10,000 nt of DNA from Acropora yongei (Eukaryota; Cnidaria; Anthozoa; Scleractinia; Acroporidae). A program made the position numbers and the translations under genes. The notes below the pieces were generated by a model. That model ran no database searches and had not been told where the DNA came from. It worked only from the letters and a program-made list of their open reading frames with translations. Below are positions 4,592 to 9,119 of the stretch, one piece after another. Each line of letters opens with the position of its first letter. Positions within the stretch are counted from its first letter, which is position 1. The stretch lies in NCBI GenBank assembly GCA_014634225.1, contig BLFN01000126.1:1550859-1560858 (forward strand), in the 5' to 3' direction.

Positions 4592-5629
4592 TCAACTTCC
4601 TTCGGGGACATCCTGTAGAGGGACTGTCTCACACTGAGGCTGGAAATCATCTAGATCTAGAGCGTGACTGCTCGTCCCTTCTTTTCCTCGAATTATCCCT
4701 TCATGGCAAGGGAAGACTTTGCGGTAAATTCCCCGGGCTGCCTTCTTCAAGTCGGGCTTCCTCAGAGTATATATGATTGGGTTAAAAAGGGACGTAAAGA
4801 GTCTTAAATAGTAAATGGTGATAGTCACCTCCTTGGGGGCTCCAAACTGATCGCCAAAGTAATGCTGAATGAGTTCCAGGATGAAGAAAGGCAACCAGAA
4901 GATAATGAAGAGAATAAGAAGTATCACGCATGTAAAGACGGCTCGTCTTTGCCGCTTCTGCATCTTCTTCTCACGTTTCAAAAACTCTGCGGGTAGATTC
5001 TCTCGCGCGATTCTCTTGCATTGCCATCGAAGAAGCAGCAGCATCCGTACATCAAGGAAAACCATTACCATTAAAGGAATGAAAAAGAACACAATAAAGT
5101 TACATGACGAGAACATAGTTTCCTTTTCTTGCACCCGTGCAAGATCCTCTTTGGCAGTGATAATGTTCACGTTTAGTGTCCAGTGGAGGCGAACAAGGGA
5201 AGTGAGACTAATGAACCAAGTCACACAGAGACCTACGACGACTCTCCCATGCTGAACGATGTCATTGTATCGCAAGGCCCACCTAATGTAAATGAAGCGA
5301 TCACAGGTCATCATCGTGATGTGCAGCACGGTGGAGATTGATGTAAGGGTGAAAAAAGTGGAGGAAGTCACACAAATGGGTGAGAAGAAGGTGGAACTGC
5401 AGACAACGAGGAGCGGGATCCCAATGACTCCTACGAGAAAATCTGACACCGCTAAACTGGCAAGGATAATATTGCTTGTTGTTCTGAGTTTTGGATACCA
5501 GAAGATAAGTAGGACTACACAGCCATTGATGGTCAAAATAAGAACTCCAAACACCACTGAAGGGACGGTATCGGGTGGAATAGTATGCTCTTGCAAACGT
5601 CCCTGGGGGATGCTTCTGTTCGACGCCAT
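4592..5629 (-). CDS. Class A (rhodopsin-like) G-protein-coupled receptor, orphan, intronless CDS
   Basis: A seven-helix plasma-membrane receptor of 345 aa, expected to couple an extracellular ligand to heterotrimeric G proteins. The reading frame is open to a TTG at 5641, but the first ATG is at 5629 with strong Kozak context (A at -3, G at +4), and an in-frame TAG lies at 5654-5656. Landmarks in 345-aa numbering: N-glycosylation sequon N4-R5-S6; TM1 with N35 (1.50); TM2 LAVSD with D63 (2.50); C86 (3.25) exactly 25 residues before R111 of the DRF motif (3.49-3.51); W138 (4.50); ECL2 cysteine C176, likely disulphide partner of C86; P185 (5.50); TM6 FWLPF with W245 and P247; TM7 NPIIY (283-287); basic helix 8 and C308, a possible palmitoylation site. 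There is no signal peptide, which is usual for the class. Position 3.32 is F93, not Asp, so it is not a canonical aminergic receptor. Positions 6.55 (E252) and 7.43 (L277) lack the adenosine-receptor Asn and His. The ligand is unknown. The family call is certain; the subfamily is open. Confidence 0.96.
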   Translation of the reverse strand: MASNRSIPQGRLQEHTIPPDTVPSVVFGVLILTINGCVVLLIFWYPKLRTTSNIILASLAVSDFLVGVIGIPLLVVCSSTFFSPICVTSSTFFTLTSISTVLHITMMTCDRFIYIRWALRYNDIVQHGRVVVGLCVTWFISLTSLVRLHWTLNVNIITAKEDLARVQEKETMFSSCNFIVFFFIPLMVMVFLDVRMLLLLRWQCKRIARENLPAEFLKREKKMQKRQRRAVFTCVILLILFIIFWLPFFILELIQHYFGDQFGAPKEVTITIYYLRLFTSLFNPIIYTLRKPDLKKAARGIYRKVFPCHEGIIRGKEGTSSHALDLDDFQPQCETVPLQDVPEGS

Positions 5630-5742
5630 GTTGGATTGCAAGATGTATGAACTCTATAATTTGTCCTTCGATTTCTTTAACTTGTTTCTTTCAAATGTTT
5701 TATGCCACTAGCCAGATTTTTAGTTGTAAGGGATGCGTCAAA
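5630..5742 (-). other. Proposed 5' UTR of the GPCR, with a splice acceptor at its upstream edge
   Basis: On the minus strand, a pyrimidine-rich stretch ending TTTTTATTTGCAG (AG at 5743-5744) makes a good 3' splice site 113 nt upstream of the receptor ATG. The stretch from 5742 to the ATG holds no other ATG and has an in-frame stop, as expected of a 5' UTR. Vertebrate and invertebrate single-exon receptors often carry an intron only in the 5' UTR, so this is a plausible end of a UTR intron. It is a prediction from splice-site shape only. Confidence 0.4.
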
Positions 5743-8399: not shown

Positions 8400-8449
8400 T
8401 TTTTTTCTTCTTTTTTTGTTTTGTTTTGTTTTTTTTTCTTTTCTTTTTA
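8400..8449 (+). repeat. T-rich tract
   Basis: A 50-bp T tract with C and G interruptions lies 135 bp after the A-rich tract and is roughly complementary to it. Together they could pair around an AT-rich spacer. Confidence 0.7.
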
Positions 8450-8605
8450 TCCAGACGATACATGAGAGAATGAAAACCTAATATCATAACAATAAGCTTC
8501 CTTATCAATTTTGGTGATTCCTACAGTCATTTTAAAGCAGGTTACAGCTTAAAACACGTCTCTCAAAAGCTCAACCGGCCAGGGAAGAGTAAATAAAAAC
8601 TTCGC

Positions 8606-8618
8606 CATTATTTCAGTT

Positions 8619-8619
<1 letters not shown>
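8606..8619 (+). repeat. Left copy of 14-bp target-site duplication
   Basis: CATTATTTCAGTTA, identical to 8893-8906 across the foldback insertion. Confidence 0.85.
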
Positions 8620-8683
<64 letters not shown>

Positions 8684-8696
<13 letters not shown>

Positions 8697-8717
8697 GCGT
8701 TAGCCCTTCGTCAGAGC
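8684..8717 (-). ncRNA. Hammerhead-ribozyme-like motif, left arm (minus strand)
   Basis: This is the mirror copy of the motif in the right arm: CTGACGA on the minus strand at 8714-8708, GAAA at 8694-8691, GTC at 8689-8687. Here the base after GTC is A (8686), so GCT before the core pairs fully with AGC after the cleavage site. Of the two copies this one has the better stem I. The same extra A after CTGACGA is present. Confidence 0.5.
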
Positions 8718-8734
8718 GAATGTCAGAAATTCGG

Positions 8735-8741
<7 letters not shown>

Positions 8742-8766
<25 letters not shown>

Positions 8767-8775
8767 AACGTCCGC
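8742..8775 (+). ncRNA. Hammerhead-ribozyme-like motif, right arm
   Basis: In order: CTGACGA at 8745-8751 (fits core CUGANGA); a short stem GGGC/GCTC with loop TAAC; GAAA at 8765-8768; then GTC at 8770-8772, the usual cleavage triplet. Stem III would be only AC/GT with no loop, so activity would need dimerisation, as described for minimal type I hammerheads of Penelope-like elements. An extra A follows CTGACGA. The base after GTC is C here, so the first stem I pair (T-C) is broken. Confidence 0.45.
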
Positions 8776-8781
8776 TTTCTA

Positions 8782-8843
<62 letters not shown>

Positions 8844-8852
8844 AATCTCTCT

Positions 8853-8884
<32 letters not shown>

Positions 8885-8892
8885 AAGAAATT

Positions 8893-8906
8893 CATTATTT
8901 CAGTTA
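8893..8906 (+). repeat. Right copy of 14-bp target-site duplication
   Basis: CATTATTTCAGTTA, identical to 8606-8619. It fixes the right end of the insertion about 52 bp beyond the palindrome. Confidence 0.85.
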
Positions 8907-8988
8907 GTTCGGCTCAAAAACTAACGTTTGGCGTTTAACGTTAAGAAAACGAAATAAGTGTGAAAGCAGCAATGTTTTCAGAAGGATT

Positions 8989-9024
8989 AAAAAAAAAATG
9001 TATATATATATTTATTTATATATA
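8989..9024 (+). repeat. A-run and (TA)n microsatellite
   Basis: Ten A residues at 8989-8998 are followed by alternating TA and TTTATTTATA to 9024. Simple repeat only. Confidence 0.75.
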
Positions 9025-9119
9025 GTTTGGAAAAAGTTTTCCTTTGCTTCAACATCCAATTGATGTCAAATCTTAGTCATGTCACCGCGCCCTTGTAGAA
9101 TTAGAAATATATAAGCAAA

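Follow-up and report, generated by a model that had tools for sequence, protein, structure and literature searches.

Minimal type I hammerhead ribozymes of the pLTRs of Penelope-like elements (PLEs) were reportedly described by Cervera and de la Pena in 2014 and by Lunse et al. in 2017. In the portions of PMC7761336 drawn on here, PLE type I hammerheads lack helix III, are located in pLTRs and are thought to cleave as dimers. Excerpts of PMC3846280 describe head-to-head pLTRs in Penelope elements of Adineta vaga, with the tail optionally on one of them and with duplications of 8-10 bp, and propose self-priming on an antisense template as their origin. According to sections of PMC11167929, a PLE protein in purified form cuts both strands and extends them, and reverse transcription begins inside the RNA at two adjacent sites with the tail between them, the start sites in vitro being alike for both strands. 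The same sections report that hammerhead cleavage was found only with PLE protein present, and that hammerhead mutations left insertion by the Anolis PLE protein unchanged in vitro.

The insertion analysed here resembles the A. vaga elements, as far as the excerpts of PMC3846280 describe them, in its inverted pLTRs, optional one-sided tail and short duplications, and in the occurrence of junction palindromes and solo pLTRs. However, the inverted pLTR of A. vaga is usually found beside a coding element, whereas here two pLTRs stand alone, at 27 of 57 places. The insertion lies in a 10,000-nt stretch of Acropora yongei DNA, the whole of which we refer to as the window. The original prediction had described an inverted repeat of 104 nt with one mismatch, in a 273-bp insertion with a 52-bp tail, flanked by an exact 14-bp duplication, and these features were confirmed, the insertion spanning 8620-8892. 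The two arms are 99% complementary and separated by 14 nt, and CATTATTTCAGTTA occurs exactly at both ends as the target-site duplication. The features are as follows.

8606..8619, no strand: left copy of the target-site duplication, 14 bp, its last base common to the left arm.
8619..8722, minus strand: left arm, read as a tail-less pLTR, inverted, with site B (the ACAAAAATTT site) at its outer end.
8679..8717, minus strand: putative minimal type I hammerhead without stem III, core intact, predicted cleavage at 8687/8686.
8723..8736, no strand: junction filler, 14 nt, absent from the other 26 head-to-head copies examined.
8737..8840, plus strand: right arm, read as a sense-oriented pLTR; single copies usually have their 5' end at ATTCGC, which here runs from 8738.
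8742..8780, plus strand: putative minimal type I hammerhead, core intact, first stem I pair broken (C at 8773).
8841..8892, plus strand: tail, read as a PLE tail, ending at site A.
8893..8906, no strand: right copy of the target-site duplication, 14 bp.

The sole mismatch between the arms is the base directly after GUC, which is A in the left arm and C in the right arm, and because of this one-base difference the right-arm hammerhead motif lacks its first stem I pair. By the hammerhead rule, cleavage would presumably fall at 8687/8686 in the left-arm motif (minus strand) and at 8772/8773 in the right-arm motif (plus strand). Elsewhere in the window, an open frame for a class A G-protein coupled receptor, whose relatives match PF00001, occupies positions 4592-5641 of the minus strand; its identity to Acropora cervicornis and Montipora capricornis proteins is 72% and 77%. 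Its coral relatives are named beta-2 adrenergic or histamine H2-like, and one database protein is 99% identical.

Searching the 405 Mb genome gave 84 matches with the whole insertion, 56 with arm plus tail and 56 with the arm alone, counts that were tallied per arm among the best candidates and are not copy numbers. We compared 57 listed places, of which 27 were head-to-head with two arms and 30 had a single arm; 46 came from queries including the tail, so that the copy set is biased, and 11 were added from a tail-free query. This 27/30 split uses a 20-nt arm minimum and all 57 copies, and a 22/24 split with a 30-nt minimum and 46 copies underlies the tests of shared variants and target duplications. 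Two single-arm copies, L014 and L027, were counted separately; they apparently represent a single insertion event, present in both copies of a duplicated segment that lie some 67 kb from each other on the same contig. The sequence of L007 runs into Ns.

By the classing used for copy ends, the 5' end of single copies was at q1-q3 (about ATTCGC) in 26 of 31, and the 3' end was at the tail end (q155 or q156) in 47 of the 57 copies. Target duplications of 9-15 bp were present in 30 of the 46 tested copies; duplications of at least 9 bp were found in 14/22 head-to-head copies and 16/24 single copies, compared with 11 of 2070 mismatched flank pairs used as control. The two copies with a mirror-image junction (L006 and L038) had no clear target duplication. 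A 28-nt core of the tail occurred 138 times in the genome with at most 2 mismatches, compared with 0 for a reversed-pattern control. The number of whole-insertion matches, the abundance of the tail core over its control and the duplications far above the control pairs therefore indicate that the insertion is not a chance arrangement. Inverted repeats and a target duplication would also be left by a DNA transposon with terminal inverted repeats (a MITE or foldback), the alternative that the original prediction had raised against itself. This was not borne out, since the single-arm copies also have target duplications (the 16/24 above), the length of the duplication varies from 9 to 15 in copies with at least 9 bp, the tail is at one end only, and the arm lies close behind GIY-YIG endonuclease frames, as described below. 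We give a DNA transposon almost no chance of being the correct explanation.

The relation to PLEs put forward in the original prediction held. With two protein searches we located copies of the GIY-YIG endonuclease from two PLE clades; 20 of 69 places were fetched for the first clade, and for the second, with 34 places, 20 fetched stretches and L043 made up 21 loci. At 8 of these 21 second-clade loci the arm was found in the same orientation approximately 10-270 bp behind the endonuclease match (over 25 bases only in one of the eight, L120), whereas none of the 20 first-clade loci had a significant match to the arm, one matching at E 0.39. This difference argues that the arm is the pLTR of a PLE. 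Four single copies (L015, L028, L037 and L068) extend by about 150 bp upstream into a common module, which comparison with P0121 and P0126, database relatives of the L118 fragment, identified as the C-terminal coding end of a GIY-YIG endonuclease. With PF01541, P0121 and P0126 scored above the cut-off and the local L114 and L118 fragments below it. At 8 of 18 places, among them that of the query itself, a segment resembling a reverse transcriptase (RT) thumb, which we take it to be, lies at most 1 kb upstream of the endonuclease; Pfam and PDB searches gave no name for this segment. None of 150 RVT_1 matches could be tied to this pLTR, and no complete reading frame was obtained from the upstream pieces L133-L135. 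The genome search for relatives of arm and tail that the original prediction had called for yielded the 57 places. A Pfam GIY-YIG search of the genome found only 5 places.

A related arrangement was seen in another PLE copy, L136 (G000:C57:3900760-3901110), which shares the tail and the pLTR's 3' half at about 80% identity; RT-like coding sequence follows its tail directly, and endonuclease matches occur farther downstream. L136 represents a second PLE family, which has short head-to-head arms and the same tail motif behind one of them.

From these comparisons of sequence, we read the insertion, at a probability of roughly 85%, as two PLE pLTRs placed head to head with the tail on one arm, which would have been made by PLE enzymes from the 5' leader. 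It is a by-product of a known retroelement class, not a new element, and the proposal that it was mobilized in trans by an element-encoded enzyme is probably right.

Both arms carry motifs in hammerhead order on opposite strands, as had been predicted: CTGACGA - AGGGCTAACGCTC - GAAA - CGTC, from 8679 to 8717 on the minus strand and from 8742 to 8780 on the plus strand. GAAACGUC leaves no room for a stem III loop. The Rfam check suggested with the prediction gave no match to any hammerhead model, even at E 10, with the window or with each arm alone, as is expected for a form without stem III such as has been described for PLEs; the stems and C3-G8 nevertheless covary across 16 copies. The best Rfam hits, mir-H11 and mir-304, were below their gathering scores and reflect the palindrome, and were set aside.

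The alignment of 16 motifs comprised the two in the window, L125 and L129 (both C3-G8, from endonuclease loci of the second search), L114 and 11 first-clade loci. The pattern used to pick rows allowed C or U at position 3 and A or G at position 8 and left the stems unconstrained, and it fixed most core letters, so that the invariance of U4 G5 A6, A9, GAAA and the U and C of GUC in 16/16 rows is partly built in. Across the paired set scored (three pairs of stem I, the 3-8 pair and five pairs of stem II), 91.0% of cells were paired compared with 61.6% after shuffling, and there were 49 double-sided changes compared with 18.8, neither value being reached in 500 shuffles. Further pair types numbered 23 compared with 18.6 in shuffles (2/500), and the number of pairs with a double change, 8 compared with 7.2, was not above the shuffles (180/500). 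When partners were slid by 1-3 columns, the covariation score fell from 0.887 to at most 0.135. The 3-8 pair was U-A in 10 rows, C-G in five and U-G in one, both window motifs having C3 and G8; three of the four 3/8 combinations pair because the pattern limits the letters at these positions, and independent changes are fewer because the rows share ancestry, three of the five C-G rows being of the window's family. Modules with U3-A8 lie behind or near other PLE endonuclease frames (L093, L094, L097, L099, L100, L105, L106, L107, L111 and L114:842-883). Other PLE families of this genome differ from the window's in having U3-A8 instead of C3-G8, possibly a natural covariation of the catalytic core pair.

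A minimal type I hammerhead motif without stem III is well supported in both arms by this pattern of pairing. It agrees with the minimal PLE hammerheads as sections of PMC7761336 describe them (type I, no helix III, in pLTRs) and with the hammerhead of PAc, which in the portions of PMC11167929 used here has stems I and II only, but differs from the minimal PLE hammerheads in that two motifs face each other within a single palindrome, one on each strand. In a single RNA the two arms would pair with each other (-188.6 kcal/mol), and this fold should make both motifs inaccessible. Because of this pairing between the arms and the lost stem I pair of the right arm, ribozyme activity of the window copy is doubtful. 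The hammerheads are of the usual minimal PLE kind and are carried along within the pLTR. Hammerheads are also the mark of retrozymes, tandem-repeat elements with circular RNA, and parts of PMC7229834 credit the coral Acropora millepora with over 6000 type I hammerhead motifs, of which as many as 1508 are canonical and occur in tandem repeats. The insertion, however, has no tandem arm at 8400-9100, no stem III and a head-to-head order, together with a PLE tail and a PLE-type endonuclease near the arm, and a retrozyme is an extremely improbable source for it.

The ends of the copies cluster at two sites that bound the tail, site A at the tail end and site B. Among the 27 head-to-head copies, all or most of the tail was on the right arm in 26, the 27th runs into Ns, and the tail was on the left arm in none. 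The places from the tail-free query included four head-to-head copies, all with the tail on the right arm only. The outer ends of left arms lay at q101-107 in 16/27 and at q97-119 in 23/27, and at q23-80, at neither site, in the remaining four. The tail was carried by 24 of the 30 single copies, and four tail-less single copies end at q102-107, which is site B. Site B therefore looks like a genuine start site, since single copies need no fold-back, and we infer that sites A and B are both start sites of reverse transcription. Two start sites bounding the tail are likewise found in PAc, Poseidon of Anolis carolinensis, in the sections of PMC11167929 used here, measured there and inferred here from copy ends. 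PAc is of a different host and family, and its strands are equal in start site, in contrast to the rule of one start per site seen here; in the published in vitro assay, reverse transcription started within the ORF. The tail had been proposed as a possible recognition end for the reverse transcriptase with a hairpin of its own. That it marks the end from which reverse transcription proceeds is in print for PLEs, in the same parts of PMC11167929, but the hairpin is weak (-3.3 kcal/mol, with 78/200 shuffles folding equally well). The equal start sites on both strands in vitro (PMC11167929, in the parts used) would alone predict copies with the tail on both arms. None were seen, and no facing tail pairs within 400 bp were seen by eye among the 100 matches listed of 138.

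The 27 head-to-head copies had 21 junction types, the commonest of which was found in six. Five of these six copies were tested for relatedness, and their mean distance was 0.068 compared with 0.074 in random sets, 42% of which were as close. As the junctions are mostly private, the palindrome was most simply made at each insertion and not inherited. This speaks against a self-propagating miniature foldback retroelement, in which the head-to-head RNA would itself be copied and re-inserted, and for which the frequency of head-to-head copies (27/57) and the one junction common to six could be cited. In addition to the diversity of junctions, and to the shared-junction copies tested being no closer kin than random sets, single copies are about equally common (30, with the tail in 24). 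Moreover, a transcript started in the flank would bring flank along, whereas left arms mostly stop at site B beside the duplication. We consider such an element very unlikely, and the miniature foldback element with its own lineage envisaged in the original prediction is not upheld.

The junctions alone fit one self-priming cDNA as well as two cDNAs. The commonest junction fits a 2-bp CA/TG fold of the cDNA end and the junction of L018 and L030 a 4-bp TTCG/CGAA fold, and some junction filler was copied from the pLTR. Variants common to both arms of a copy numbered 20, in 10 of 22 copies, compared with 6.9 expected and a maximum of 19 in 5000 shuffled pairings; two of the 20 were only the extra first C. 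Three little-diverged copies were fully concordant (L004 4/4, L007 2/2, L045 3/3). In the other 12/22 the arms had no variant in common, and several of these 12 had private variants on both arms, which may be explained by age. The shared variants support a common RNA or source for both arms in part of the copies only. A C before ATTCGC (8737 in the window) is present in the window's right arm and 15 other right arms of 46, and the upstream module has T at this position. This extra first C may be added at the cDNA end.

Variants shared within a copy beyond chance, and junctions of the kind expected from folds of the cDNA end, would both follow if a cDNA from site A folded back at the end corresponding to the RNA 5' end, copied itself and stopped at B, for instance at a protein on the tail. 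Self-priming has been proposed before, although on an antisense template in the excerpts of PMC3846280. However, such a snap-back should copy the tail too, and none of 27 left arms has it; nor does it explain why the copied arm stops at site B, which is the end of four tail-less single copies as well. The cDNA end folds weakly as DNA (-2.2 kcal/mol, with 27/200 shuffles folding as well), and the mirror-image junctions of L006 and L038 do not follow from it, though both copies may be rearranged. We regard snap-back as rather unlikely.

Two priming events are favoured because the tail is on one arm only and single copies also end at site B. In this scheme, the PLE endonuclease would make a cut in each target strand, the two cuts being about 14 bp apart. 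Of the resulting DNA ends, one would prime cDNA at the end of the tail (site A) and its partner would prime at site B, which is closer to the RNA 5' end by 52 nt; the two could use the same RNA or two sister molecules as template. The two cDNAs would extend as far as the RNA 5' end near ATTCGC, where their 3' ends would join via 2-4 nt of self-complementarity or templated filler. The ends of copies at ATTCGC, together with a TATA-like motif about 30 nt before it in the four copies extending upstream (ATATAAA in L015, L037 and L068; TTATAAA in L028), suggest that ATTCGC marks the transcription start and thus the RNA 5' end. We judge this scheme of two primings, with one start at each of the two sites per insertion, to have slightly better than an even chance of being correct. 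In LINE-1 twin priming, two priming events at one insertion produce an inverted copy joined by microhomology; here, by contrast, both arms would derive from one and the same region of the RNA, with two fixed sites as starting points.

More tentatively, and with somewhat less than an even chance, PLE retrotransposition may normally be two-ended, the strands being primed at the tail end and at the inner site on the same or a sister RNA in one complex. Head-to-head pLTRs would then be the ordinary signature of the process and single pLTRs its half-finished outcome, and the rule of one end at A and one at B in the copies would be genomic evidence for asymmetry between the two ends. How head-to-head pLTRs originate is left to future experiments in the excerpts of PMC3846280, and sections of PMC11167929 leave the later steps of PLE insertion unvalidated. 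The A. yongei genome preserves numerous small insertions whose duplications, junction fillers and end sites serve as a record. Among them, sister copies separate a palindrome that is inherited from one that is made at insertion, and they allow a direct test of the two-start model. As an element, the insertion is an ordinary PLE by-product; the value lies in its set of sister copies, which turns a question of PLE biology into countable outcomes.
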